From the IMG/VR virus record IMGVR_UViG_3300035698_007443, positions 1 to 38,133 of that record: a stretch of 38,133 bases of DNA. The stretch is one strand, 5' to 3'. Below are positions 16,336-37,639 of the stretch, piece after piece; position 1 is the stretch's first letter; each line of letters starts with the position of its first letter. The translations under genes were made by a program, and so were the position numbers. The stretch is from a virus. The notes beneath the pieces are model-generated. The model saw only the letters and a program-made list of their open reading frames with translations, had not been told where the DNA came from and did no database searches.

Positions 16336-17958
16336 TTATGTTGCCCAAGCGTCAACGCCCTGTGCGCCACGACTGATTGTCAGCGTGGCAAGTCCGTCAC
16401 CCTGCAGAATCTTCATGCCATTTCTGCTGTTGACAGAGCGCTTGTGCTTGTTGGTTTCGGCGTCGTAGTCAACTTCTGAAATGTACAGCGGGATATATGG
16501 TGAGAAAACAGCCGCCGTATGGTTCCAAGACGGTGGCTTGTAACCGATGAGCATGGTGTTTGCATTGAACCATGTTGACTCGTAGACCTGATAGGTTCCA
16601 GATACACCAGCTTTCTTCATGCCGAAGCCAAACTGGTTGGCAGGAGCCTTGTCGGGTGTCCAATCACCCATTGCGGAAAACTGAGATGTCGTGTTTGCGT
16701 CACAGACAATCCAGTCACCACGGAGATACATCTTCTCGCCAATCGAGCCAGATGTCTTATTGATCCAGTCTGCGAGACCGGCACTGTTCCAGTTTTGCTG
16801 GCCATCCCAGGCGGTTGGCATTGTAGTTCCATATGTGTTGGTGGCAGCGGACGCCCCAGCACGCATCAACTCAAGGAAACTACCATTAAGCTCACGGGCG
16901 ATCTGATCAACACAGGCAGTGATCATTTCACGATCTGCATCAAGGTTGTAGTAAGCCATCATGTCCTGCATTACAACTGATGTCAGATCGTAGTAGATTG
17001 ACTTTTCAGTAGCAGTAATGGTCTGGTGAGACATCTCGAAACTTGCCTGTGACTTAGTAGCTGCCTCAATGTGATCCGCCCATGACGTGTCAAACGCATC
17101 AGAGTCGTCAAAATCATCACCATCAGGTGTTCCAGACGCATACTGGAAGTCAAGGAAGTATACCCGTCCCTCTGGGGTTGGAATAGGCTGCACAGAAGCG
17201 ATTTCGTAAGGAATCAGTTTCGGAAACAGAGACCGGATAATCGGCAACACATAGGGAATGGTTGTTCCAAGAGCAGTTGTTGTAGTTGCTATTTCAAGTG
17301 TTCTACGCAGTCCTTGTTTCGTGCAGGCATTGAAATACATTGGGAACTGACCCTGCATGGTTTCCATCATCTGATTCCAAATATACATTGGATTACCAGG
17401 GTTCTCAACACCAGTATCCTCAATGCCTGCTCTGAGATCAGTGAGAACACCATTAACAGTATCTGGTCTCTCTGTGCCTTCGTGTTCGATATGAGGCATC
17501 CATCTGTTATCATTCGTATTACGATTTGCTTCATAACCCAAACCAGTAATGGCAATACCATCATACTGAGTCGGAGCAAATGCGTTTTCAACCTGTGGAG
17601 TAATATCAGCAGCAACTGCCGCGACTTCATCCACTGTCGTGCATTTGTCAAAATGGACAGTCATAATCTTCGCTACATCTTCTCTGCCCTTAGCGATAGA
17701 CTCGATTGCCGCTGCCTTTGCAGCGTTAAGTTCTGTTGCGCTTCGTGCGGCCTCAACGGCAGCAGTAGCGACCTCAGTTGCCTGTGATGCCATGTCAGCA
17801 CGAACCTGCGCCATAAACGCCTCAGCGTCGAATGCTGGGGCCGCTGGCGTCTGTTCCTGCGTAACTGGCTCTGGAGCAACTGACACTTCAGGTGTTGGCG
17901 GAGCAACAGGAGGCGTATCAACAGTCTGTTCCTCTGTGCCTACAATTTCTTCGGCCAT
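16336..17958 (-). CDS. Internally initiated scaffold + major capsid protein
   Basis: An in-frame ATG at 17958, inside the protease-capsid fusion, is preceded by GGAGGT with a 7-nt spacer, the best ribosome binding site in the region. Translation from it would give a 540-residue protein beginning MAEEIVGTEEQTVDTPPVAP. It would have a Pro/Val/Thr-rich then Ala-rich helical scaffold-like segment (EAFMAQVRADMASQATEVAT) and the major capsid domain. Nested scaffold genes inside protease genes are known in lambda-like phages (Nu3 in C). Here the nested product would also include the capsid protein. Inference: this start supplies most capsid subunits, and the full-length fusion supplies few protease copies. 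Confidence 0.7.
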   Translation of the reverse strand: MAEEIVGTEEQTVDTPPVAPPTPEVSVAPEPVTQEQTPAAPAFDAEAFMAQVRADMASQATEVATAAVEAARSATELNAAKAAAIESIAKGREDVAKIMTVHFDKCTTVDEVAAVAADITPQVENAFAPTQYDGIAITGLGYEANRNTNDNRWMPHIEHEGTERPDTVNGVLTDLRAGIEDTGVENPGNPMYIWNQMMETMQGQFPMYFNACTKQGLRRTLEIATTTTALGTTIPYVLPIIRSLFPKLIPYEIASVQPIPTPEGRVYFLDFQYASGTPDGDDFDDSDAFDTSWADHIEAATKSQASFEMSHQTITATEKSIYYDLTSVVMQDMMAYYNLDADREMITACVDQIARELNGSFLELMRAGASAATNTYGTTMPTAWDGQQNWNSAGLADWINKTSGSIGEKMYLRGDWIVCDANTTSQFSAMGDWTPDKAPANQFGFGMKKAGVSGTYQVYESTWFNANTMLIGYKPPSWNHTAAVFSPYIPLYISEVDYDAETNKHKRSVNSRNGMKILQGDGLATLTISRGAQGVDAWAT

Positions 17959-18834
17959 GGTAATGACCTCCGTATGATTTTGTTCACTTGTTGTTTGCGT
18001 GGGCTGTGTGGGCTGTACGTCTTCTTTGCTAATCTTCACGGTTTTTGTATCTGCGGCACCGCGAGTAACAACATCGCAACCATCCCACACATAATCAGTG
18101 ACCTTATAGTATTCAACATCGTCTTCATCGTCGTCGTCTCCAACAGGCTTCATGCGTCCATATCCAACGATAGACCATTCTGTTGCCACTCCGCTTGCCC
18201 ACAAAGTTGCGATGTCTTGGCCTGCGCGTGTGGGGATTAACTTCCCCTCCAAGTAAACATCGTCATCTTGTATCATCACGGAAGTATACCGAATCACTAT
18301 ATCTGACGGCTTGCTTGCTGAGAAGAGGTCTGGGTGACCGTCTTGTCCAGTAAATCTACCTTCCTTCTGGAGACGACGCACTCTTCCCATATTGCGTTCA
18401 AACTCTTCACGAGAATACAATCTATCATTCTTGTTCACTTTATCGCACTGTGCGACAATGGCTTTGAACGTGATCTCTCCCGTATCTTTATCTTCTGTAA
18501 AGTCAGGAACGCCGACAACGAAGTTGTCTGCTATCCGCTCCATTCCCTCAGAAACCATTATTGCATCAATGCGCTTATCGGCAATAAGAAGAATTTCTTC
18601 ATCATTCACAGTTGCAACGGCGCTGTCCACGTCCTCGATGGTTTCTGCATTTTCAATCAGAGACGCTACATCTTCAACGCTCTCATTGATCGCTTCAACC
18701 ATTATGGTTCCGCACTTAGGACACTCTTTACTCTCAGAAACCGGAGTGCCATCGTCATTTTCATAAGAACATTCTGGGCAAGTATATTTGCCATCCATTG
18801 TTCCTACAACATCTTCAGGGATAACTGCTGCCAT
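16336..18834 (-). CDS. Prohead protease - scaffold - major capsid protein fusion
   Basis: The 832-residue polyprotein has three parts. Residues 19-41 form a CPEC...CPKC zinc ribbon. Residues about 105-265 form a prohead protease of the T4 gp21/XkdF-like kind: NKNDRLYSREEFERNMGRV, a GQDGHPD box with H167 and an EWSIVGYG box with S221 are the likely catalytic residues. From about 300 comes a Pro/Ala-rich scaffold-like helix, then the capsid fold (RRTLEIATTTTALGTTIPYV, LPIIRSLFPKLIPYEIASVQ), which resembles phage and archaeal-virus gp23-like capsid proteins. A strong promoter lies upstream (18920-18948) and a terminator downstream. The fusion is continuous, with no stop codon between parts. Confidence 0.85.
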   Translation of the reverse strand: MAAVIPEDVVGTMDGKYTCPECSYENDDGTPVSESKECPKCGTIMVEAINESVEDVASLIENAETIEDVDSAVATVNDEEILLIADKRIDAIMVSEGMERIADNFVVGVPDFTEDKDTGEITFKAIVAQCDKVNKNDRLYSREEFERNMGRVRRLQKEGRFTGQDGHPDLFSASKPSDIVIRYTSVMIQDDDVYLEGKLIPTRAGQDIATLWASGVATEWSIVGYGRMKPVGDDDDEDDVEYYKVTDYVWDGCDVVTRGAADTKTVKISKEDVQPTQPTQTTSEQNHTEVITMAEEIVGTEEQTVDTPPVAPPTPEVSVAPEPVTQEQTPAAPAFDAEAFMAQVRADMASQATEVATAAVEAARSATELNAAKAAAIESIAKGREDVAKIMTVHFDKCTTVDEVAAVAADITPQVENAFAPTQYDGIAITGLGYEANRNTNDNRWMPHIEHEGTERPDTVNGVLTDLRAGIEDTGVENPGNPMYIWNQMMETMQGQFPMYFNACTKQGLRRTLEIATTTTALGTTIPYVLPIIRSLFPKLIPYEIASVQPIPTPEGRVYFLDFQYASGTPDGDDFDDSDAFDTSWADHIEAATKSQASFEMSHQTITATEKSIYYDLTSVVMQDMMAYYNLDADREMITACVDQIARELNGSFLELMRAGASAATNTYGTTMPTAWDGQQNWNSAGLADWINKTSGSIGEKMYLRGDWIVCDANTTSQFSAMGDWTPDKAPANQFGFGMKKAGVSGTYQVYESTWFNANTMLIGYKPPSWNHTAAVFSPYIPLYISEVDYDAETNKHKRSVNSRNGMKILQGDGLATLTISRGAQGVDAWAT

Positions 18835-29173: not shown

Positions 29174-29884
29174 ATGTACTTGAATAACTTTAGTGTGCGT
29201 ATCCCCGAAGGTGTAGAGACACAAAGCCAATATGTAGAGATGAGACACAGGCAGAAGTATTCAATTTCACTCCGTAATAACAGAGATGTCAGATGTGACG
29301 CAGATATAGTCATCGACGGCAAGTTGGTAGGTACCTGGAGGATCGAAGCCGGTGAATCTATCCGACTGGAACGGCCTGCCGATGAAGCAAAGAAGTTCAC
29401 GTTCTACAAAGCCGATAGTGAAGAAGGACAGCAGGTAGAAGCAGACAACGTAGATAAGCAAGAAAAAGGACTTGTCGAAGTAATATTCAGACCAGAGATG
29501 AAGATAGTCCCACTGATGCGAGTACAAGAACCACAACCATGGCAAACAACATGGGACTCGACTTGGTATACGACGATTGACGGTGGTGCTTGTGATAACA
29601 ATGTTCCAATATCAACATACTACTCGTCAGAAGCATCAGCAGAGCCGAAAATCACAGCAACGAGAAGTGCTGATATAGGAAGAAAAAACTATGGCGAAGG
29701 CGTCACCGGCTTGTCTGGTCACAGCAACCAACAATTCAACACAACATTCTCGCTGGTATATGATGAAGCAGAAACAACAATCATCCACCTGAGACTGGTT
29801 GCAGTTGAAGACGAGAGACAAAACCCGCAACCACTTAGGGCAGTCCGTAATTCAACAGATGTCCCGCCACCGATCTACTGTTGA
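29174..29884 (+). CDS. Conserved protein of unknown function
   Basis: The 236-residue protein begins MYLNNFSVRIPEGVETQSQY. The start is set by AAGGAG nine nt upstream. An upstream in-frame ATG at 29066 has no such site. Sequence character: VEMRHRQKYSISLRNNRDVR, DADIVIDGKLVGTWRIEAGE and LERPADEAKKFTFYKADSEE suggest beta sandwiches. GEGVTGLSGHSNQQFNT is a distinctive block, and the tail is Pro-rich (DVPPPIYC). I recall similar uncharacterised proteins but can name no function. It has its own promoter, and a consensus promoter overlaps its stop codon. Confidence 0.7.
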   Translation: MYLNNFSVRIPEGVETQSQYVEMRHRQKYSISLRNNRDVRCDADIVIDGKLVGTWRIEAGESIRLERPADEAKKFTFYKADSEEGQQVEADNVDKQEKGLVEVIFRPEMKIVPLMRVQEPQPWQTTWDSTWYTTIDGGACDNNVPISTYYSSEASAEPKITATRSADIGRKNYGEGVTGLSGHSNQQFNTTFSLVYDEAETTIIHLRLVAVEDERQNPQPLRAVRNSTDVPPPIYC

Positions 29885-29909
29885 CAAGTAACGTAGACAT
29901 GTGTATAAT
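29881..29909 (+). promoter_or_regulatory. Consensus sigma70 promoter for putative sRNA
   Basis: TTGACA (29881-29886), a 17-nt spacer and TATAAT (29904-29909) match the sigma70 consensus exactly. It overlaps the stop codon of the upstream gene. There is no reading frame downstream before a terminator, so the product should be a short RNA. Confidence 0.85.
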
Positions 29910-29915
29910 AAAGAA

Positions 29916-30000
29916 CAAGTAGGCTGTAAAGACCGTATCTGGCGAGACCCACAGCGCGGAGGTCAAGAAAGAGCCCCCTCACACCAATAGGGGGCTCTTT
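29916..30000 (+). ncRNA. Putative phage small RNA (about 85 nt)
   Basis: The interval lies between a perfect consensus promoter and a strong intrinsic terminator and contains no credible open frame. Possible internal structure is GCTGT (29923-29927) with ACAGC (29951-29955). It also contains GCGGAGGTC (29956-29964), identical to the first nine bases of the tRNA-His encoded on the opposite strand just downstream. It may act as an antisense or decoy RNA, or be a remnant of a tRNA-like sequence. Expression is inferred from signals only. Confidence 0.6.
29968..30000 (+). terminator. Strong bidirectional intrinsic terminator
   Basis: AAAGAGCCCCCT and AGGGGGCTCTTT form a 12-bp stem around a 9-nt loop, with A-run and T-run flanks. 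It ends the putative sRNA on the plus strand and could also stop minus-strand transcripts leaving the tRNA-His gene. Confidence 0.9.
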
Positions 30001-30008
30001 CGATTCAT

Positions 30009-30086
30009 TGGGGCGAAGGACGGGATTTGAACCCGCGAGTATGCGGACCACGACCGCATGTCTTAACCAGACTTGACGACCTCCGC
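30009..30086 (-). tRNA. tRNA-His(GTG)
   Basis: Cloverleaf read on the minus strand: acceptor GCGGAGG/CCTTCGC, anticodon loop TCGTGGT in a TGCGG/CCGCA stem, T-loop TTCAAAT. The discriminator is C, as expected for histidine tRNAs, and CCA is encoded. Confidence 0.95.
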
Positions 30087-30092
30087 TATTTT

Positions 30093-30127
30093 TGGGGTGG
30101 GGCAGGATGCAGTCCCGCGCCACCCCA
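30093..30127. other. Strong hairpin downstream of the CRISPR array
   Basis: TGGGGTGG (30093-30100) and CCACCCCA (30120-30127) form an 8-bp GC-rich stem around a 19-nt loop. On the minus strand it lies about 100 nt past the last repeat and just before tRNA-His, but it is followed by A residues rather than a U-run. It may be a processing or 3'-protecting element for the array transcript rather than a classic terminator. The arms resemble the GGGTGG end of the repeat. Confidence 0.5.
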
Positions 30128-30230
30128 CGTCTATTTGCTGCCGTCCACTCTGCACAACGAACGACAGGGGGTATAATTGGTACTTGACGCAAAACTGTAG
30201 CCATAGTGTCTTCTACACCAAGACTTACCC

Positions 30231-30442
30231 CCAACCACCCTCGCGCGCGCGGAACATACGATTCTCAATTCACAGCAAAACAGCAACGACTCCAACCACC
30301 CTCGCGCGCGCGGAACATACCAGCGGGGGCACATACGATAACCCCGAAGAATCCAACCACCCTCGCGCGCGCGGAACATACTCGTCATCATGATCGTGTC
30401 GTCCGTAAACCAACCAACCACCCTCGCGCGCGCGGAACATAC
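30231..30442 (-). CRISPR. Mini CRISPR array: 4 identical 29-bp repeats, 3 spacers of 32 bp
   Basis: Repeats lie at 30231-30259, 30292-30320, 30353-30381 and 30414-30442 and are all identical. On the minus strand each reads GTATGTTCC, then a GC-alternating centre, then GAGGGTGGTTGG. Spacers at 30260-30291, 30321-30352 and 30382-30413 are each exactly 32 bp and unrelated to each other. The 29/32 geometry and the repeat's character are those of type I-E arrays, yet no type I cas gene is in the window. The minus-strand direction is inferred from similarity of the repeat's 3' end to I-E handles and from the adjacent same-strand nuclease gene. The perfect identity of all repeats argues for recent use or recent acquisition. 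Confidence 0.95.
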
Positions 30443-30454
30443 ACCAACCGCACA

Positions 30455-30483
30455 CAATGTTCCGCAACACATGGGGTGGTGCC
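30455..30483 (-). ncRNA. Inverted degenerate repeat: tracrRNA-like anti-repeat
   Basis: This sequence is an inverted partial copy of the CRISPR repeat, placed between the TnpB-like stop codon and the first repeat. Transcribed on the minus strand it contains ACCACCC and GCGGAACAT, separated by 8 nt. These are exactly complementary to GGGTGGT and ATGTTCCGC in the repeat, which are also separated by 8 nt. The duplex would be 9 bp, an 8x8 internal loop, then 7 bp, much like tracrRNA:crRNA pairing. A small hairpin (TGCCTG/CAGGCA, 30480-30500) lies immediately 5' of it on the transcript. Chance matching of both blocks in register is very unlikely. Function as tracrRNA is inferred. Confidence 0.75.
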
Positions 30484-30510
30484 TGCCGTGAAGACAGGCA
30501 ACCGCAGTTA

Positions 30511-31737
30511 CTACACTGCTTCGCGCTTCACTGGGGCTGGTTTCACGTTGGCAATCAAACTGCCAACGCCAGAGCCGTCCCCTCCACGCGCGTTTAGACT
30601 CTCGCCAGTTTTTGACGCGAGTTGCTTCAGGTTTACCGCCGCATTTAGATCGCGGTCGATAACCAACCCACACTCATTACATGTAAATGTTCGCTCACTC
30701 AACGACAATTCAGATTTGATACAACCACAACCAGAACACGTCTTACTACTTGGATACCATCTATCTGCTACGATGATTGTAACACCATACCACGCTGCTT
30801 TATATGTAAGCTGACGACGCATCTCTCCCATTGATGAATCGGCAATTGATATAGCCAAACGCCTGTTCTTCAACATTCCACTCACGTTTAGGTCTTCAAT
30901 AACAACTACACTAGGCCGTAGGTGTGCAGGCTTATCGACGCCGATGATGGCTGATGTTATCCTGTGTATTTCATGTTTAAGGATGTCTGCAATATGCCTA
31001 TGTAGGTTCTTAATGCGTATCTGCGTATCGTGCCACCGATTGCTCGGGGGATGTCCATGACTTGGTTTATCCTGTCGATCAGATTTACGCTGCAGGCGTG
31101 CCATCTTTTTCATTTTCTTTCGATACGAACGTGGAGAACACCATGTTCGTCCATCAGATGTAACGGCCAATTGCGAACATCCCAGATCAACACCAATTGG
31201 TTTTCCTGTTGCAATGTCGGCTTCGGTTGATTCCTCTACTTGTACAGATGCAAACCATCGACCTCCTTTGCAACTAACAGTAACGGACATGATATTTCCT
31301 TCAGTCATAACAGGGAGATACGCTCGTTCTTTAATGCGTACCCAACCAATCTTCTGCAATCTAATACGCTTTTGTGTAATGTGGTGTAGCGAAACACCCC
31401 AAAACTTGATAGCACACCATCCACGATATTTGCTTTTGAACCTCGGGAAACCACGTGGCTTGCCATCTTTACGTGGTTTCGATGATTTAGGTAACTTGCG
31501 TTTCCCACTGCATACATCAAACCAGAATTGATATGCACTATCCAGCATCCGTCCGGCAGTTTCCTCAACACGACTGCAATACTGTCTCATCCAAGGAAAG
31601 TGACTATCCTTTCTGGAACGGAAATGCTTGATAAGCCTGCTTGTGAAGATGGTTTTGTTGCCATCAGTTGCGTGTTGCCCAAACATACTATAGTGTCGAA
31701 TTCGACGGGCAAGCATCCAGTTATAAGCAAATCTCAC
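30511..31737 (-). CDS. tnpB: TnpB/Cas12f-like RNA-guided RuvC nuclease
   Basis: The 408-residue frame (from GTG at 31737) is an IS200/IS605-type TnpB, related to compact type V effectors. RuvC-I is IGVDLGCSQLAV (D184), RuvC-II is VVVIEDLNVSGM (E281), the zinc finger is CSGC...CNEC (C334, C337, C353, C356), and RuvC-III is IDRDLNAAVNLK (D361/D363). Catalytic residues look intact. The conserved TnpB N-terminus YKTELDPNETQLKALYRHSG is in frame upstream to about 31812, but no ATG, GTG or TTG lies in that frame before a TGA at 31830. Initiation may be at a rare codon (ATT at 31821, 10 nt after AAGAGG), or a frameshift has occurred. No tnpA or IS ends are seen. An anti-repeat and a CRISPR array follow on the same strand. 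Confidence 0.9.
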   Translation of the reverse strand: MRFAYNWMLARRIRHYSMFGQHATDGNKTIFTSRLIKHFRSRKDSHFPWMRQYCSRVEETAGRMLDSAYQFWFDVCSGKRKLPKSSKPRKDGKPRGFPRFKSKYRGWCAIKFWGVSLHHITQKRIRLQKIGWVRIKERAYLPVMTEGNIMSVTVSCKGGRWFASVQVEESTEADIATGKPIGVDLGCSQLAVTSDGRTWCSPRSYRKKMKKMARLQRKSDRQDKPSHGHPPSNRWHDTQIRIKNLHRHIADILKHEIHRITSAIIGVDKPAHLRPSVVVIEDLNVSGMLKNRRLAISIADSSMGEMRRQLTYKAAWYGVTIIVADRWYPSSKTCSGCGCIKSELSLSERTFTCNECGLVIDRDLNAAVNLKQLASKTGESLNARGGDGSGVGSLIANVKPAPVKREAV

Positions 31738-31861
31738 TGCACCCGAATGTCTATATAGCGCCTTCAGTTGTGTTTCGTTCGGGTCAAGTTCTGTTTTGTA
31801 TGCCCGCTGAATTGATGAAATTACAAGTCATCCTCTTGTCTTGTTAGTTAGTGTTAATTTC

Positions 31862-31889
31862 AATATACCGCACTGTATGTTGTTTCAAA
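31862..31889 (-). promoter_or_regulatory. Possible promoter of the tnpB-like gene
   Basis: On the minus strand TTTGAA/TTGAAA lies 15-16 nt before TATATT (31867-31862). AAGAGG follows at 31837-31832. The spacing is short for sigma70, so this is only a candidate, but it is the best signal in the 140-bp gap between tRNA-Pro and the nuclease gene, which otherwise holds T-rich sequence and no gene. Confidence 0.4.
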
Positions 31890-31976
31890 CATCTTTTTTT
31901 TGTTTCGTGTGATGCGGTTTCGCCATCCCGGAATTGCTTTTTTCATGTTCACAAAAAAAATAGCCATGAGAAAAAA

Positions 31977-32056
31977 TGGTCTGGGTGGAGAGATTCGAAC
32001 TCCCGAGAATTTCCTCATCCCAAATGAGGCGTCTTAGACCGCTAGACTACACCCAG
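31977..32056 (-). tRNA. tRNA-Pro(TGG)
   Basis: Minus-strand cloverleaf: acceptor CTGGGTG/CACCCAG, anticodon stem CCTCA/TGAGG with loop TTTGGGA, T-loop TTCGAAT, discriminator A and encoded CCA. Confidence 0.95.
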
Positions 32057-32130
32057 ACTTTGCGGGCGGCACTGACTTTCACCATGACCAATCAGCCACT
32101 ATAGCGACCGTTGATTGCCACTCCGAAGAC

Positions 32131-32466
32131 TTAACTGTCACCATACTTCTTCTTCAGTCTCTCGTACTCACGGCAGTCCTTCTCTTCTTTCTTGGCTTTC
32201 TTGGTAGCTTTCCCTTTCTCTACTGCTTCATGTTTCTTTTTTCTTGCATTGAATTCTTTGTCTGTTTCAAGACGAGTTCCAGAAAATTCAACAGCATCAT
32301 CGTATACATACTCTACTCGAATATTGGTATATCCAGCAGCAACCATTTCATCTTTATTGTCTTGTAGTTCCTTTATTGCCCCGTCAATGGTTGTATCGAA
32401 AATATCATATGGACAAACACGTTCATACACAGCTTCCACTTCTTCTTTCTCATTTACGTAAGCCAT
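32131..32466 (-). CDS. Small charged phage protein, unknown function
   Basis: The 111-residue protein begins MAYVNEKEEVEAVYERVCPY. The C-terminal third is a highly charged helix, lysine- and glutamate-rich (EFNARKKKHEAVEKGKATKK then EYERLKKKYGDS). Phage early-region proteins with an N-terminal alpha/beta domain and a similar K/E-rich tail ending in YERLKKKYG are common, but their role is unknown to me. The start has an AGG motif (GAAAGGTATGTG) nearby. It lies between tRNA-Pro and tRNA-Ile. Confidence 0.7.
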   Translation of the reverse strand: MAYVNEKEEVEAVYERVCPYDIFDTTIDGAIKELQDNKDEMVAAGYTNIRVEYVYDDAVEFSGTRLETDKEFNARKKKHEAVEKGKATKKAKKEEKDCREYERLKKKYGDS

Positions 32467-32491
32467 TTCACATACCTTTCCAACGATGTTT

Positions 32492-32567
32492 TGGTGCAGG
32501 GGGACGAATTCGAATCGCCAACCTCAGCATTATCATTGCTGCCCTCTACCAGTTGAGATACCCCTGC
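32492..32567 (-). tRNA. tRNA-Ile(GAT)
   Basis: Minus-strand cloverleaf: acceptor GCAGGGG/CCCCTGC, anticodon stem CAGCA/TGCTG with loop ATGATAA, T-loop TTCGAAT, discriminator A and encoded CCA. Confidence 0.92.
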
Positions 32568-32584
32568 ACTTTGAATATGAAGAT

Positions 32585-32663
32585 GGGGATGGGTTCCATG
32601 CTTCCCTAAGAGCACAATGCTACCAGCTTAGGGCTGGTGGTCTGCTACGCATTGACCATCCCC
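32585..32663 (-). ncRNA. tRNA-sized structured RNA with predicted pseudoknot
   Basis: The element is closed by GGGGATGG/CCATCCCC and sits in line with the tRNA genes, but neither strand offers a proper T-arm. On the minus strand a GGTC/GACC hairpin is followed by ACCAG-loop-CTGGT. The loop CCCTAAG is fully complementary to CTTAGGG downstream, giving a 7-bp loop-to-downstream pairing (pseudoknot). Read as a tRNA the anticodon would be CTA with C at position 33 on the minus strand, or TAG on the plus strand. No CCA is encoded. It may be a degenerate tRNA, a small ribozyme or a regulatory RNA. Confidence 0.5.
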
Positions 32664-32676
32664 ATCAAATTATTTG

Positions 32677-32751
32677 GCATGAGCAGAAGGGATTGAACCC
32701 TCGTCTATCGGGTTGGAACCGATGGTAATAACCACTATACTATACTCATGC
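32677..32751 (-). tRNA. tRNA-Trp(CCA)
   Basis: Minus-strand cloverleaf: acceptor GCATGAG/CTCATGC, anticodon stem ATCGG/CCGAT with loop TTCCAAC, T-loop TTCAATC. Unlike its neighbours it has no encoded CCA end (acceptor is followed by CAAA). Confidence 0.92.
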
Positions 32752-32753
32752 TA

Positions 32754-32828
32754 TGGCTGCGGTAGGAGGGATCGAACCTCCGACTATCGGGCAACAGCCG
32801 ATTATTTTACCTACTAAACTACACCGCA
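32754..32828 (-). tRNA. tRNA-Asn(GTT)
   Basis: Minus-strand cloverleaf: acceptor TGCGGTG/TACCGCA, anticodon stem ATCGG/CCGAT with loop CTGTTGC, T-loop TTCGATC, discriminator G and encoded CCA. Confidence 0.93.
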
Positions 32829-32835
32829 GTCCTGC

Positions 32836-33192
32836 TTACTTATAACTGTATACGAAATAACCAAAAATGGCTACATCATTTGACTCGAAATCGTACTGTG
32901 CTCCAACACCAGCCCTATCTGCCATCGTGAATGACTTGAGTTGATCAATGACAGGAAATCCATCTGGTGCATCAGCACTACACCCAAGCCCAGCATTCGA
33001 GAAATCAACAGATGCAAATGTATCAGCATAGAACTCGAAGTCAAACCATTCCCCGATCCTGTAGCTAGCCTGTAGGCTCGGAACTGTAATATCCGCTGAA
33101 CTCCACAGGATGCCGACAGAGCCGTTGTTATCAGCAAGTGCAGGTGTAGCCATACAAGCGATTACTACGAGTGCTACAATCAGATTCTTCAT
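32836..33192 (-). CDS. Secreted (signal-peptide) protein, unknown function
   Basis: The 118-residue protein starts MKNLIVALVVIACMATPALA, a textbook Sec signal peptide with cleavage after PALA, then DNNGSVGILWSS. The mature part is beta-rich with aromatic strands (GEWFDFEFYADTFASVDFSN) and ends GYFVYSYK, like a small periplasmic or outer-membrane beta protein. The start is fixed by GGAGAC before the ATG. A longer upstream ATG would bury the signal peptide. A palindrome TTGAGTTACTCAA at 33216-33228 lies in its upstream region and could be an operator. A superinfection or envelope-modifying role is possible but unproven. Confidence 0.7.
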   Translation of the reverse strand: MKNLIVALVVIACMATPALADNNGSVGILWSSADITVPSLQASYRIGEWFDFEFYADTFASVDFSNAGLGCSADAPDGFPVIDQLKSFTMADRAGVGAQYDFESNDVAIFGYFVYSYK

Positions 33193-33263
33193 GTTGTCTC
33201 CGTTATACCCATTAGTTGAGTTACTCAAACAACGATTTTACCACATATTCTATTTTGCTTCAA

Positions 33264-34271
33264 TCAGTGCTTTTCCGTTCCACCACTACGAGACAGATAA
33301 TCATCTGAAACAAACTTGAGGATTCTCCTCCCTATTTTAGCATGAGTGCTGTTCAGTAGCGATCTGACAACAACGCCTTCGCGCATGCACTCACCCTCGC
33401 ATTCTGTATTTCCAGAAGCAAGTTCACGCATCTTGTCTCGATCATATGGCCCACGATAGATAACAGGTGCTGTTGGAATGTCGTGCTCTTCACAGGTAAC
33501 GGAAAACTCATCACAGGTATAGTACAGGCCGTCAACCTCTATGTCAAACGCTCGATATAGATATTCACCAGAGCTTGTGCCATACCGCAAGTCCTGGACC
33601 CATCCATAAATCTCTCCGTAGATGATGGCGCTGTACTCAGCATCGAGCGAACGCAATAAATCCCTAAGCGGATGAATGAACATTGGCTGCTCATATAGAG
33701 AACTTATGCCCATCGGATGTGTGTGATTACGGCTACCCACCATGAACTCGCAGTCAACATATCCAATCCTGCTGTTTGTACCATGAATCTTTTCAGTTGC
33801 AACAACCATCTCTCCAGGCTCGAACACGGAAGGATAGTTACGTTCGTTTTGTATCTTCGTATACAGACAGAAGTGTGGGTGGTTTGATATCAGGTTGGCA
33901 TCTTGCGGCTCTGGTGGATCGTACTTCTCGATGTTGTAAAACTCAGCAGCGTTGCTACCGACATCAAGATTGTCATCGTTGGGAATAACAAAGCCATGAC
34001 TTGGTTCGCCACGCAACTTCACAGCACGAACTCTCCCGTGTTGTGGCCCACTCTTACCAAACGATAGATACTTAACAACACCCCACGTTGTTGCTATATC
34101 CACTGGTACTATCGACTCTGGCGGGATGTGAACAACAACATCTCCATCGTTGAATGATTCCTTTTTAACAACAACCTGCCAACCACCAACCTGCGCGATT
34201 TCGAGAGAATCAGCATTTGGATGAACGCTTATGCTATCTATTGCACATACGCTACAGATTAGATCGCTCAC
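33264..34271 (-). CDS. RNA ligase (Rnl family, DraRnl/Rnl5-like)
   Basis: The product, about 335 residues, is an ATP-dependent RNA ligase. An N-terminal OB-like domain (DSISVHPNADSLEIAQVGGW) precedes the adenylyltransferase domain. Motif I is VATEKIHGTNSRIGYV with the catalytic K of KIHG. Motif III is IIYGEIYGWV, motif IV is MREGVVVRSL and motif V is RRILKFVSDDYL. This order and the N-terminal extension match the Deinococcus RnlA-type family. It seals RNA nicks. Surrounded by tRNA genes, its likely job is repair of tRNAs cut by host anticodon nucleases. The GTG at 34271 is preferred because GGAG lies five nt upstream. An ATG at 34292 has no such site. Confidence 0.85.
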   Translation of the reverse strand: MSDLICSVCAIDSISVHPNADSLEIAQVGGWQVVVKKESFNDGDVVVHIPPESIVPVDIATTWGVVKYLSFGKSGPQHGRVRAVKLRGEPSHGFVIPNDDNLDVGSNAAEFYNIEKYDPPEPQDANLISNHPHFCLYTKIQNERNYPSVFEPGEMVVATEKIHGTNSRIGYVDCEFMVGSRNHTHPMGISSLYEQPMFIHPLRDLLRSLDAEYSAIIYGEIYGWVQDLRYGTSSGEYLYRAFDIEVDGLYYTCDEFSVTCEEHDIPTAPVIYRGPYDRDKMRELASGNTECEGECMREGVVVRSLLNSTHAKIGRRILKFVSDDYLSRSGGTEKH

Positions 34272-34301
34272 TCGATCTCCATTCCTTTGCATGATTTGTT
34301 G

Positions 34302-34378
34302 TGGTGCCCCGAGTCGGACTCGAACCGACGACTCCCTGATTAAAAGTCAGGTACTGCTACCAACTGAGTTACCGAGGC
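34302..34378 (-). tRNA. tRNA-Lys(TTT)
   Basis: Minus-strand cloverleaf: acceptor GCCTCGG/TCGGGGC, anticodon stem CCTGA/TCAGG with loop CTTTTAA, T-loop TTCGAGT, discriminator A and encoded CCA. Confidence 0.95.
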
Positions 34379-34386
34379 ACAAAGAT

Positions 34387-34463
34387 TGGAGCGCCCGACA
34401 GGACTCGAACCTGTGTCAAATCGGGTAGAATCCGACCACTCTAATCCACTGAGTTACGGGCGC
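34387..34463 (-). tRNA. tRNA-Arg(TCT)
   Basis: Minus-strand cloverleaf: acceptor GCGCCCG/CGGGCGC, anticodon stem GTCGG/CCGAT with loop ATTCTAC, T-loop TTCGAGT, discriminator T and encoded CCA. Confidence 0.95.
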
Positions 34464-34478
34464 TTTTCGTTAGGCATA

Positions 34479-34766
34479 CTATTCAAGATCGAGTTTTTCC
34501 TGCGCATCACTAATGAGTATTTCCCTTTCTTCTCGTGGAACATCATCACTGATATGAACCATTGTCCAATCAGCAGCTACACCTTGAAGAACGTCTTCCC
34601 ATGGTTTATCAATCTGATGTACCCATCCAACTGTCCATTCTGGTGGATTCCACGATCCATCTACATCATCAACGCTATTGTTGGCTATCGTCTCCGCTTC
34701 TTCTTTTGAAGCTGCATAAACATCTACATCGAATGTTCTTTCAAACTCAATCCTGTAGTACGGCAT
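34479..34766 (-). CDS. Small phage protein, unknown function
   Basis: The 95-residue acidic protein starts MPYYRIEFERTFDVDVYAAS. The start follows GGAGG with a 5-nt spacer. An ATG four codons earlier is less well placed. The N-terminal beta strand, then KEEAETIANNSVDDVDGSWN, resembles short phage proteins with a beta-alpha 'DpnD/PcfM-like' fold (xYRVxVEETxxxxVxVxAxSxEEAxxxA), which is a tentative resemblance. No function is proposed. It lies between tRNA-Arg and tRNA-Met. Confidence 0.65.
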   Translation of the reverse strand: MPYYRIEFERTFDVDVYAASKEEAETIANNSVDDVDGSWNPPEWTVGWVHQIDKPWEDVLQGVAADWTMVHISDDVPREEREILISDAQEKLDLE

Positions 34767-34783
34767 ATCGACCTCCAATTTGT

Positions 34784-34860
34784 TGGTGGGCGCACGAGGG
34801 ATTGAACCTCGGACCTGCGCATTATGGGTGCGCTGCTCTGAACCCCTGAGCTATACGCCC
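34784..34860 (-). tRNA. tRNA-Met(CAT), C33 variant
   Basis: Minus-strand cloverleaf: acceptor GGGCGTA/TGCGCCC, anticodon stem GCGCA/TGCGC with loop CCCATAA, T-loop TTCAATC, discriminator A and encoded CCA. The loop has C where U33 is nearly universal. The CAT anticodon could also be tRNA-Ile2 if C34 is modified. Confidence 0.88.
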
Positions 34861-34865
34861 ATGTT

Positions 34866-34950
34866 TGGTGCCGGAGGAGGGATTTGAACCCTCAATCCCG
34901 AAGGCACCTGTTCTTAAAACAGGCATGTATTCCAGTTCCACCACCCCGGC
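34866..34950 (-). tRNA. tRNA-Leu(TAA)
   Basis: Minus-strand class II tRNA: acceptor GCCGGGG/CTCCGGC, anticodon stem CCTGT/ACAGG with loop TTTAAGA, long variable arm (TGCCTTCGGGA), T-loop TTCAAAT, discriminator A and encoded CCA. Confidence 0.95.
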
Positions 34951-34956
34951 AATATT

Positions 34957-35034
34957 TGGTAGCGGAGGTGGGATTTGAACCCACACTACCCGATTTTTGA
35001 GATCGGTCCCTCTGCCAATTGGACTCACTCCGCC
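34957..35034 (-). tRNA. tRNA with CAA anticodon (Leu), atypical short variable arm
   Basis: Minus-strand cloverleaf: acceptor GGCGGAG/CTCCGCT, anticodon stem CCGAT/ATCGG with loop CTCAAAA, T-loop TTCAAAT, discriminator A and encoded CCA. The anticodon reads UUG (Leu), but the variable region is only 5 nt, whereas bacterial leucine tRNAs have a long arm. Amino acid identity is therefore uncertain. Confidence 0.85.
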
Positions 35035-35038
35035 ATTT

Positions 35039-35115
35039 TGGTAACCCCGGAGGGATTCGAACCCCCAACACAGCGGGTCTAAACCGCACGCATCTACCAG
35101 TTGGGCTACGGGGTT
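35039..35115 (-). tRNA. tRNA with TAG anticodon (Leu), atypical short variable arm
   Basis: Minus-strand cloverleaf: acceptor AACCCCG/CGGGGTT, anticodon stem TGCGG/CCGCT with loop TTTAGAC, T-loop TTCGAAT, discriminator A and encoded CCA. The anticodon reads CUA (Leu), but the variable arm is only 5 nt and the outermost anticodon pair is mismatched. Charging identity is uncertain. Confidence 0.85.
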
Positions 35116-35127
35116 ACTAATATTAAT

Positions 35128-35217
35128 TGGAGCCAGCGGTAGGATTCGAACCTACGATGTTAGCCAATCGGCACCAGATTTACAGTCTGGCTCCTTCAGC
35201 CACTTGGATACGCTGGC
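35128..35217 (-). tRNA. tRNA-Tyr(GTA)
   Basis: Minus-strand class II tRNA: acceptor GCCAGCG/CGCTGGC, anticodon stem CCAGA/TCTGG with loop CTGTAAA, long variable arm, T-loop TTCGAAT, discriminator T and encoded CCA. Confidence 0.94.
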
Positions 35218-35226
35218 ATCAGATCA

Positions 35227-35532
35227 TTAGTCAAACATCTCTTGTACTTTTCTCCACAACTCGAAGTACAATGCATCTCCGTAACGGACAACATGTGGTG
35301 TAAACTCGTCAATGCCATCTTCGATCTTGCGGATAGACATTGGCGTACACCAATCAATGTATGCATCCTGGTTAGCATCTATGAACAACATCTTGGCTTG
35401 CCCGCGTGTCTTGGCAACCACAACATCGACTATTCCTACAATCTCTCTGCGTTCCCAGTAGTCGATAGTCTCGACTGTTGCCTCGTGCTCACCTGCATCG
35501 CAAAAGTATGCATTCATTACTGTGTTTACCAT
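35227..35532 (-). CDS. Small phage protein, unknown function
   Basis: The 101-residue protein (MVNTVMNAYFCDAGEHEATV) has strands and helices consistent with a compact alpha/beta fold. VAKTRGQAKMLFIDANQDAY is its most distinctive stretch and resembles short phage proteins that start with an 'F-x-V-x-A-x-x-x-G-x-A-r' pattern. Its ATG overlaps the previous stop as TAATG, implying coupling. It is not recognised. Confidence 0.6.
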   Translation of the reverse strand: MVNTVMNAYFCDAGEHEATVETIDYWERREIVGIVDVVVAKTRGQAKMLFIDANQDAYIDWCTPMSIRKIEDGIDEFTPHVVRYGDALYFELWRKVQEMFD

Positions 35533-35978
35533 TAGATTGATATAACTGTATTTTCGTTAAATTTCCCATCATAGTTTGCTCCACAAGAATGTCTCAAGGA
35601 AAGAAGTGGAATCTCTTGTATACCAAGATGGTTACACTGTTTTGTAGCCCATTTACCTCCACACTGATCTTCGACAACTTTGAACACGAATTCCTTGGCC
35701 CAATCCCATACAGAACTCATATCACTTGTGCTATCTTCGTCAAAGACAAACCCAGGCCAATGCTCAATAACAGCACCATGCTTCATCCTGTCTGCACGCC
35801 CAAATGATATGTCACGACCTACTTGCTTGTTGTACATATCATTTACAGAACACTTAGCAATCCCAACCTTTACCATTTGTGCTTCTTCGTCGAGGATAAC
35901 ACAAGCAGTAACACCACCACGCCCAAATAGATTATCATCGTCATCGTAATACCTGTAGTGAATGTACCTCGGTTTCAT
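35532..35978 (-). CDS. Phage protein, unknown function
   Basis: The 148-residue protein starts MKPRYIHYRYYDDDDNLFGR, set by GGAGAT immediately before the ATG. GGVTACVILDEEAQMVKVGI, then KCSVNDMYNKQVGRDISFGR, is reminiscent of phage proteins of unknown function that contain a C-x-x-x-D-x-F/Y-x-K-x-x-G-r motif. A cysteine pair occurs later (EDQCGGKWATKQCN). No function is claimed. It is coupled to the following small gene by a TAATG overlap. Confidence 0.65.
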   Translation of the reverse strand: MKPRYIHYRYYDDDDNLFGRGGVTACVILDEEAQMVKVGIAKCSVNDMYNKQVGRDISFGRADRMKHGAVIEHWPGFVFDEDSTSDMSSVWDWAKEFVFKVVEDQCGGKWATKQCNHLGIQEIPLLSLRHSCGANYDGKFNENTVISI

Positions 35979-36042
35979 ATCTCCATCCTTTCGTTTATTA
36001 CGTGTTGTTATAAGCCTACCCAACGGTAACCTACATCAAACA

Positions 36043-36492
36043 TTACTTCACAACAGTTGTTACCGTGTTGATAAACTCACTCATTACAAGATAGTCAATG
36101 GTGGCAATATTGATGATGTTAATAACACAACCAACTATAGACCCAAAAATACCAATAGACCCAAATACAATACCTAATGCCCACATGTTGTCACGGGTAT
36201 ACAAACGACTACTAACAACAACAAAAACTATGCTGAGAATCAATCCAAATACTGCAACACCAAGACATGAATAACAATTGATAGTATATCGTCTTTCAAT
36301 AGCCTGATAATACACCAGTCCCGGTCCGCTCAGTTTTCCTTCCAGCAAATCAACAATGCCTTCAACACAATCTACCATTCCATCTGCATCAAGCACAACT
36401 TCAACAGTCTGTGCTTTCTCCGAAGATTCATCTGCAACACAAACACCTGCTGTAACCAAAAGAACAACAAAAAACCATACATTAGTGTTCAT
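36043..36492 (-). CDS. Membrane protein with signal sequence and two TM segments
   Basis: The 149-residue protein starts MNTNVWFFVVLLVTAGVCVA, a signal or anchor sequence. The start follows AAAGGAGACAGGT. An acidic loop comes next (KAQTVEVVLDADGMVDCVEG), then two membrane spans (LGVAVFGLILSIVFVVVSS and LGIVFGSIGIFGSIVGCVIN). It is probably inserted in the host inner membrane. Phages often encode such proteins for superinfection exclusion or lysis control, but nothing in this sequence identifies the role. Confidence 0.65.
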   Translation of the reverse strand: MNTNVWFFVVLLVTAGVCVADESSEKAQTVEVVLDADGMVDCVEGIVDLLEGKLSGPGLVYYQAIERRYTINCYSCLGVAVFGLILSIVFVVVSSRLYTRDNMWALGIVFGSIGIFGSIVGCVINIINIATIDYLVMSEFINTVTTVVK

Positions 36493-36585
36493 ACCTGTCT
36501 CCTTTGTGTTGTTGTATGTTGCACATATGCGCAACATGCTTGTTTCTTACAACATACCCGCCAATCACTACGGCCAAACATCTTT

Positions 36586-36662
36586 TGGAGCCGGTGGTCC
36601 GATTTGAACGGACGGCCTGAGAAGTACAAATTCCCTGCTCTAATCCACTGAGCTACACCGGC
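36586..36662 (-). tRNA. tRNA-Thr(TGT)
   Basis: Minus-strand cloverleaf: acceptor GCCGGTG/CACCGGC, anticodon stem GGGAA/TTCTC with loop TTTGTAC, T-loop TTCAAAT, discriminator T and encoded CCA. Its 5' ten bases overlap the 3' end of the upstream small gene. Confidence 0.94.
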
Positions 36663-36934
36663 TCATCATCCAACAGATACTGAGTGCTTGCTATCATGTC
36701 TTCAATGGCTTTCTGTGGTGTCATGCCATAGCCTTGGGGGTAATCATTACATACAACAAAGTGACGTTTTACGATGCCACCCCCGTCAGGAACAACTGTC
36801 TTGATTGTGTGTGCTGTCCACTTCTCATCCATAGAATACAACTCTGGGTTGTCTCTACGATCTTCAGCAGATGAACAATATAGCCTTATCGTAAACCCAC
36901 GACCAATCTTAACCATGAACTCATCAAGCGTCAT
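36653..36934 (-). CDS. Small phage protein, unknown function
   Basis: The 93-residue protein begins MTLDEFMVKIGRGFTIRLYC. Its C-terminal part CNDYPQGYGMTPQKAIEDMI is a typical 'G-x-G-x-T-P-x-x-A-I-x-D' pattern of short phage and plasmid proteins of unknown function. The stop codon lies inside the tRNA-Thr 5' end (10-bp overlap), so mRNA and tRNA processing compete for the same sequence. No function is proposed. Confidence 0.65.
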   Translation of the reverse strand: MTLDEFMVKIGRGFTIRLYCSSAEDRRDNPELYSMDEKWTAHTIKTVVPDGGGIVKRHFVVCNDYPQGYGMTPQKAIEDMIASTQYLLDDEPV

Positions 36935-36955
36935 GCTTCACCTCTTTGATGTATT

Positions 36956-37032
36956 TGGTGCCCCCAGCGGGATTCGAACCCGCGATTTCAACCTTGAAAG
37001 GGTTGCGTCCTTGACCGCTAGACTATGGGGGC
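36956..37032 (-). tRNA. tRNA-Glu(TTC)
   Basis: Minus-strand cloverleaf: acceptor GCCCCCA/TGGGGGC, anticodon stem CAACC/GGTTG with loop CTTTCAA, T-loop TTCGAAT, discriminator A and encoded CCA. Confidence 0.95.
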
Positions 37033-37037
37033 ACTCG

Positions 37038-37298
37038 CTAATTTTCCATTACTCTTACCATTAAACTCCAGATACTCTCAAACAAACCACACTTCCGCTC
37101 GAACAACTGACACTTCCCGTCGTTGTTTACATTTCTACAATCAAGCACTCCTTCCCAACCAATACGACCAGTTATCGAACAAGTGTGTCTTACTGCATTG
37201 GCATGACATAACCAGCTTTCTCCACCAAAATAATCGGATGGATAGTAACGACAATGCCTGCACCTCACACAAATCACTTTCTCATTAATCTTGGACAT
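37038..37298 (-). CDS. Cysteine-rich putative zinc-binding protein
   Basis: The 86-residue protein has a CVRCRHC cluster near the start, then WLCHAN, HTCSITGR and LDCRNVN...KCQLFERKC, enough cysteine and histidine for one or two zinc sites. This pattern resembles short phage zinc proteins that begin with a CxxCxxC-like cluster and end in a C-x-x-F motif. It overlaps the upstream basic protein gene by 25 bp. The function is unknown. Nucleic-acid binding is possible. Confidence 0.6.
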   Translation of the reverse strand: MSKINEKVICVRCRHCRYYPSDYFGGESWLCHANAVRHTCSITGRIGWEGVLDCRNVNNDGKCQLFERKCGLFESIWSLMVRVMEN

Positions 37299-37489
37299 GT
37301 TGCTGGATCAAACATTCCTTTTCCGTCTCTTGGAGAGCGATATGGATTCCCAAACTGCCACTTGTGGGCTACTTGCCCTGTGCTTCTCTCCCATGCTCGT
37401 CTACGCCTACGCGAGAACCGCTTGTACCATCCACTCCACTTGGTAGAACAGAATGCTGAGAAAGGTCTCTTCTTACGCGATCTCGACAT
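37274..37489 (-). CDS. Small basic MSRSRKK-type phage protein
   Basis: The 71-residue highly basic protein starts MSRSRKKRPFSAFCSTKWSG and continues with a run of arginines (RFSRRRRRAWERS). Short proteins with the same MSRSRKK opening are frequent in phage genomes and remain uncharacterised. The charge suggests nucleic-acid binding. Its end overlaps the zinc-binding protein gene. Confidence 0.65.
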   Translation of the reverse strand: MSRSRKKRPFSAFCSTKWSGWYKRFSRRRRRAWERSTGQVAHKWQFGNPYRSPRDGKGMFDPATCPRLMRK

Positions 37490-37551
37490 ACGACCACCAC
37501 CAATTAGCTTTTACCAACAAACGGTATGTGACTGTTCTTGTATAAAACTGT

Positions 37552-37639
37552 TGGAGGCAGAGGGGAGATTCGAACTCCCGAAACCTTTCGGTCTAACGGT
37601 TTTCAGGACCGCCGCCTTAAGCCACTCGGCCACCCTGCC
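37552..37639 (-). tRNA. tRNA-Ser(TGA), C33 variant
   Basis: Minus-strand class II tRNA: acceptor GGCAGGG/CTCTGCC, anticodon stem GCGGT/ACCGT with loop CCTGAAA, long variable arm, T-loop TTCGAAT, discriminator T and encoded CCA. Position 33 is C rather than U. Confidence 0.93.

Follow-up and report, generated by a model that had tools for sequence, protein, structure and literature searches.

The window, by which we mean the whole 38,133-base IMG/VR virus record IMGVR_UViG_3300035698_007443, carries a tnpB gene that is followed on the minus strand, 68 nt 3′ of its stop codon, by a short CRISPR-like array (Table 1). The array consists of four exact copies of a 29-mer with start-to-start steps of 61, 61 and 61 nt, and of three 32-nt spacers that are mutually unrelated and have no second copy within the window. 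Over 100 shuffles of the window, the expected number of copies of the 29-mer is 0, even at three mismatches. The array stands out as a GC-rich block, at 59% GC compared with 46% for the whole record. A first-pass annotation had described four identical 29-nt repeats with 32-nt spacers, and this is borne out by the exact copies and their spacing; the GC-alternating centre and the 3′ end of I-E type that it had ascribed to the repeat (GTGGTTGG) are both present when the repeat is read on the minus strand. It had also described the phage as one without type I cas genes, and in agreement with this neither I-E cas1 nor cse1 was found in the 38-kb record, and 10 further window proteins gave no match to PADLOC. 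The identity of the four repeats, together with unrelated spacers of equal length, argues for recent maintenance of the array.

Table 1. Features of the tnpB-array locus, in minus-strand order.
Feature	Position	Strand	Basis
TnpB-family RNA-guided nuclease, frame of 438 codons plus stop	30511..31827	-	Pfam, NCBIfam, PDB, invariant catalytic columns
Probable omega/tracr-like scaffold, comprising the 68-nt gap and the last part of the tnpB frame	30443..30600	-	fold z, weak Rfam match
Two-armed anti-repeat	30457..30480	-	opposite-strand pattern, two-block score
Repeat R4, first in transcript order	30414..30442	-	exact copy, spacing
Spacer S3, 32 nt, first guide in transcript order	30382..30413	-	sequence reading, comparison
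Repeat R3	30353..30381	-	exact copy, spacing
Spacer S2, 32 nt	30321..30352	-	sequence reading, comparison
Repeat R2	30292..30320	-	exact copy, spacing
Spacer S1, 32 nt	30260..30291	-	sequence reading, comparison
Repeat R1, last in transcript order; no repeat past R1	30231..30259	-	exact copy, spacing
tRNA-His gene, next feature downstream of the array	30009..30086	-	tRNA search

The protein encoded upstream of the array matches OrfB_IS605 and Cas12f1-like_TNB in Pfam, guided_TnpB in NCBIfam (243.7 bits, cut-off 100) and the TnpB structure 8h1j in a PDB search (E 1.5e-41), and it falls below the curated NCBIfam cut-offs for C2c8 (54.2 of 350 bits) and Cas12f2 (58.3 of 450 bits). The RuvC Asp/Glu/Asp and zinc-finger Cys columns are invariant across 24 phage TnpBs, comprising the window protein and 23 others, and the RuvC and zinc-finger residues are likewise unchanged in an alignment of the window TnpB with four other phage TnpBs. 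Judged from its sequence, the gene looks intact. Homology to other TnpBs spans the whole frame from the first codons; the earliest ATG, GTG or TTG in the frame is the GTG at 31737, and a canonical start for the full-length protein is missing. The likeliest real start would be a nonstandard one, an ATT near 31821 with AGAGGA upstream, and it is possible that the full-length protein is started through coupling to a short overlapping ATG frame (31737-31827, minus strand). No TnpA was noticed in the ORF list of the window.

The tnpB-array unit lies inside a tRNA region (30009-37639, minus strand) that contains 15 tRNA genes, all on the minus strand, and an RNA ligase gene (33264-34292). On the plus strand, at 29881-30001, a sigma-70 promoter match of 12/12 (TTGACA-17-TATAAT) stands about 60 nt ahead of a perfectly paired 13-bp hairpin (z -3.3); this stretch is a candidate gene for a short RNA of some 85 nt and has no above-threshold Rfam match. 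Elsewhere in the window, an 832-aa frame (16336-18834, minus strand) encodes a major capsid protein of the T4 Gp23 family (PF07068, 1e-30). The N-terminal part of this frame matches prohead protease S77 weakly (20.5 bits, cut-off 27), and it could possibly represent a protease-capsid fusion.

Between the tnpB stop codon and R4 there is a two-armed anti-repeat, CCACCC-n8-GCGGAACAT on the minus strand, which is missing from the first-pass annotation. The arm ACCACCC is complementary to repeat positions 20-26 and the arm GCGGAACAT to repeat positions 3-11. The pattern CCACCC N8-15 GCGGAACAT has five occurrences in the window against 0.00 expected: one in each of the four repeats, on the plus strand, and one in the anti-repeat, on the minus strand. 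The energy of the anti-repeat:repeat duplex is unremarkable (19/300 shuffles are as good and one unrelated 60-nt window is better), and because the repeat is GC-rich, duplex energy does not discriminate the anti-repeat. A gapped local complementarity score is reached by 2 of 200 shuffles. The two-block score, devised only after the outcomes of the duplex-energy and local-alignment comparisons were known, is 16 for the window anti-repeat and is reached by none of 500 shuffles. The probable scaffold, folded with R4 included, has a z of -3.8 (0/200 shuffles equally stable) and contains a stable hairpin at about 30481-30499; within it, the anti-repeat and R4 fold as one omega-RNA-like hairpin of 72 nt, which by itself is weaker (7/200 shuffles as stable). 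The Rfam Transposase-2 RNA matches weakly at 30480-30529, with 17.4 bits, which is below the gathering threshold of 42.7.

Two other phage TnpB loci have the same layout. From alignment-based searches, 80 phage TnpB loci were kept out of 411 relatives, and 80 of 214 loci were kept for the Cas12n alignment. A scan of these 160 loci requiring at least three repeat copies, in which 74 of the 80 phage TnpB loci reach at least 300 nt past the stop codon, detected arrays in eight: L126 and L156 among the phage TnpBs, and L199, L200, L202, L203, L219 and L265 among the other 80. The L126 array has five repeats, two of them diverged, with spacers of 32, 32, 33 and 33 nt, and the L156 array has three repeats and one more that has diverged, its spacers measuring 33, 33 and 34 nt. 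The repeats are 29 nt long in all three phage loci, and the gap between stop codon and first repeat is 68 nt in L126, exactly as in the window, and 61 nt in L156. The window repeat is identical to the L126 repeat at 18/29 positions (0/2000 shuffles as good) and to the L156 repeat at 16/29 (5/2000). Taken singly, the two-block anti-repeat score is weak for both L126 (25/500 shuffles as good) and L156 (56/500). L128 and L138, the nearest sister TnpBs of the window, have no array.

Other TnpB-like genes were encountered in the same collection. At L219 (3275-3562), a viral TnpB-like gene from another part of the tree is accompanied by an array with a period of 65-67 nt and an AT-rich repeat. Downstream of a TnpB in L264 and L265, from 3469, there is a tandem repeat with a period of 62; its copies seem to extend over the spacer part, so that it looks like a tandem duplication rather than a CRISPR array. 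The 485-kb phage genome LR745208.1 (W01) encodes at least three long TnpB-like genes, two of them convergent, with further weak matches, and no adjoining array was seen in the stretches read.

For comparison with Cas12n, a name we use after PADLOC and PMC11641405, the Cas12u4 profile was run over 394 actinomycete genomes and gave seven loci at 547-651 bits, which were taken as Cas12n (type V-U4/V-N). Three of the seven (L077, L079 and L081) have an array directly 3′ of the effector, as does a Janibacter locus (L053) that groups with them; the period of these four arrays is 60-61 nt, bar one 78-nt interval in L081. The other four of the seven have no array in the flanks examined. Among six Cas12n loci on viral contigs, at least three repeat copies are present in four, and two copies in a fifth. 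Of the Janibacter Cas12n-like effector (L053, 2431-3528), only the C-terminal part matches the profile (positions 265-465 of 488); this effector may be a truncated one that has kept its array.

As a control we used three genuine I-E arrays adjoining I-E cas1 genes (L107, L108 and L110). In all three, a CAGGTC motif has its first base exactly 13 nt ahead of the first repeat. Six of eight Cas12n arrays (L053, L077, L079, L081, L199 and L202) carry this motif at -13 too, and the remaining two carry versions of it that differ by a single base; it is lacking from all three phage TnpB arrays (those of the window, L126 and L156). The common leader motif points to type V-N arrays being captured I-E arrays. 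At present Cas12n does not generally depend on a resident I-E system, because I-E cas1 was above the cut-off in only three of the eight Cas12n genomes searched. In a swap control, the upstream 160 nt of each of 11 TnpB/Cas12n arrays was scored against every repeat, with a mean of 12.9 for the own repeat and 8.6 for foreign repeats. The native sum is reached by 0 of 200,000 permutations for all 11 arrays and by 76 of 200,000 for the eight Cas12n loci only; for the genuine I-E arrays the own-repeat scores are 10, 6 and 10. At single loci the anti-repeat signal is clear for the window, L081 and L203, and weak or nonsignificant for L053, L079, L200, L077, L156, L199, L202 and L126. Taken as a set, the loci therefore show anti-repeat pairing, and in the window it is strong.

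With the Cas12u4 profile the window protein reaches 245 bits, whereas the seven true members reach 547-651 bits. Its assignment to Cas12n by the PADLOC profile was rejected, given that ordinary TnpBs score 200-425 bits too. In four trees of 61, 33, 112 and 36 rows (the 61-row tree without 20 fragmentary or near-duplicate loci, the 33- and 36-row trees being chosen subsets), Cas12n forms one clade and the window protein falls with phage TnpBs outside it. With constraint groups that were defined once earlier trees were known, and with a long window branch, placing the window inside the Cas12n clade is 18 log units worse (AU p 0.028) and uniting the window, L126, L156 and Cas12n is 80 log units worse (AU p 0.0004), while the test does not reject a single clade that unites the window with L126 and L156 (p 0.27). 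The best tree groups the window with the array-less L128 and L138 (97/98) and L126 with L156 (100/100). From the tree position it follows that the array was gained separately from that of Cas12n. A TnpB-like effector directly beside a CRISPR array, without cas1, is what defines type V-U, and the window locus has this arrangement; from type V-N it has the tracr/anti-repeat at the 3′ end of the effector and lacks both an effector of the Cas12n clade and the I-E leader motif. The best reading of these comparisons is that the locus would work like Cas12n yet belong to a separate TnpB lineage.

The resemblance to I-E repeats that had been noted at first holds in part. The I-E-type geometry of 29-nt repeats and 32/33-nt spacers is present, and the window repeat is identical at 16/29 positions to three genuine I-E repeats from actinobacteria (equalled by 8-11 of 2000 shuffles). 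The stable internal repeat hairpin expected for Cas6e is absent: the window repeat folds at -7.0 kcal/mol (z +0.63), which is no strong hairpin, whereas all three genuine I-E repeats form an internal hairpin of -14.3 to -15.5 kcal/mol (z -2.3 to -3.3). Cas6e processing is disfavoured for this reason. The first-pass annotation had also proposed comparing the repeat with host arrays and searching for the targets of the three spacers, and neither gave a match. The exact 29-mer is absent from all viral_contigs, and a degenerate form of the repeat, expressed as one pattern, has 0 matches in the 84,980 species genomes of genome_contigs. No protospacer was found in phages, plasmids or viral_contigs. 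The whole array matched 3 phage and 11 plasmid records in short stretches only (E about 1 or worse), the 18-nt spacer ends matched 0, 2 and 1 loci in viral_contigs, none within 8 mismatches over 32 nt, and a search of 49 viral records with S3 alone gave a match in 0 of them. The L126, L156 and L199 arrays likewise had no match in phages.

Taking together the array, the anti-repeat, their order and strand, the intact catalytic residues and the two phage relatives of equal layout, all of which are directly observed, we interpret the locus, with a probability of about 0.7, as a minimal phage-borne TnpB-CRISPR locus (type V-U-like) whose guide RNA would come in two pieces, a tracr-like one and crRNAs encoded by the array. 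The anti-repeat statistics, the swap control, the layout of L126 and L156, the layout of the Cas12n loci, the I-E leader of Cas12n arrays and the invariant catalytic columns support this interpretation; the plain duplex energy, the weakness of L126 and L156 taken singly, the lack of an I-E leader and of a protospacer, the array-less sisters and the missing canonical start count against it. The minus-strand transcript would run from tnpB through scaffold and anti-repeat to R4-S3-R3-S2-R2-S1-R1. The 3′ end of the tnpB message would be the tracr-like scaffold, with its anti-repeat pairing with the 29-nt repeats; R4-S3 could be folded in one piece with the adjacent anti-repeat, and R3-R1 would be paired in trans. 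Each repeat would substitute for the 3′ arm found in the omega RNA of an ordinary TnpB and would present its own spacer as guide, which would convert a one-guide TnpB into a three-guide nuclease. The RNA would be processed by TnpB itself or by RNase III, and DNA matching the spacers would be cleaved. The phage thus probably loads its own nuclease with interchangeable guides, most likely directed at competing phages, plasmids or host defence genes. Because the phage record has no cas1, we infer that the 29/32 geometry derives from a host type I-E system, whose array was captured or which still writes spacers into the phage array.

The first-pass annotation offered another use of the mini-array, in which it is read by a host type I-E Cascade against competing phages and TnpB is a bystander. 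Phage mini-arrays used in such a manner are known (PMC11656645), and the 29/32 geometry and the 16/29 identity to genuine I-E repeats would fit. However, the repeat lacks a strong hairpin of Cas6e type and was not found, as a degenerate pattern, in 84,980 species genomes, the anti-repeat adjoins tnpB on the side of the array, and two more phage TnpBs have such arrays directly 3′; moreover, the known mini-arrays have host-identical repeats and one or two spacers (PMC11656645). We consider use by host Cascade alone unlikely. The same annotation had treated the TnpB and I-E models as alternatives. The two can combine, because, as Cas12n loci show, an I-E-type array can serve a TnpB-derived effector.

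One such combination is dual use, where a captured I-E array is written by host I-E Cas1-Cas2 and read by both Cascade and the phage TnpB. The I-E geometry is common to all three phage loci, Cas12n arrays bear the I-E leader, host I-E adaptation can extend type IV-A plasmid arrays (PMC11656645), and the Cas12n PAM AAN (PMC11641405) overlaps the I-E PAM AAG (PMC4762764). Yet the hairpin of the window repeat is weak, the window array is without the leader motif and I-E cas1 accompanies Cas12n in so few genomes, and double reading of the array seems to us improbable. An ordinary TnpB omega RNA beside an unrelated or decayed array, with R4-S3 only or nothing of the array in use, is very improbable; the anti-repeat and R4 would suffice for one omega-RNA-like hairpin and the sister TnpBs do without arrays, but the four identical repeats and the unrelated spacers of equal length point to recent maintenance.

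The TnpB-CRISPR interpretation can be set beside known systems. Cas12n (type V-N, V-U4, c2c9) is described as a characterised, tracr-using, TnpB-derived nuclease (PMC11641405). The window locus is like it in having a TnpB-derived effector, an array directly 3′ on the same strand with a 61-nt period, I-E-like 29-nt repeats, a two-armed anti-repeat before the first repeat (clear in L081 and L203) and, on the Cas12n side from the literature, a tracrRNA within the effector mRNA; it is unlike it in its low profile score, its position outside the Cas12n clade and the absence of the I-E leader motif. Ordinary TnpB uses a single RNA from the element end, whose 3′ tail is the guide (PMC8612924). With IS200/IS605 TnpB such as ISDra2 TnpB the window protein shares full-length homology, the catalytic residues and a scaffold at the 3′ end of the gene, whereas its guides would come from a multispacer array instead of the element flank, and no TnpA accompanies it among the ORFs noted. 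The V-U2 system of cyanophage vB_AphaS-CL131, with 36-nt repeats, 26-45-nt spacers and no tracrRNA seen (PMC6293099), also consists of a phage-borne TnpB-like protein beside an array without adaptation genes, but its protein is distant (56 bits to the window TnpB) and its repeats are longer. Virus-borne mini-arrays that use host Cas proteins are similarly short and are carried by phages without type I cas genes; in contrast, the window repeat occurs in no host searched and has its own effector and anti-repeat alongside. About 50 TnpB-array associations have been inferred (PMC12669027), and for viruses the reported cases include two TnpBs located close to arrays and a single virus with three V-U4 (PMC12607003). 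Such associations are thus already frequent, including in viruses, and the window locus is therefore of a known kind.

To our knowledge, the origin of TnpB-linked arrays and the transition from omega RNA to tracrRNA plus crRNA are largely open. At the window locus the protein is still an ordinary TnpB, the RNA would already be in two parts, and the array is laid out like that of another CRISPR type. This locus and the I-E leader before Cas12n arrays make the idea of array capture directly testable, and the window, L126 and L156 provide three compact phage nucleases to test. We found nothing joining Cas12n with I-E arrays in the limited literature searched, which is no proof of novelty. We propose tentatively, as a possibility that may well prove wrong, that type V effectors arose more than once by TnpBs capturing I-E arrays, once as Cas12n in actinobacteria, with arrays that retain I-E repeats and leader, and separately in a phage TnpB lineage to which the window, L126 and L156 would belong, and that host I-E adaptation writes the guides of the phage nuclease. 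If this is true, a class 2 effector would live off class 1 memory.
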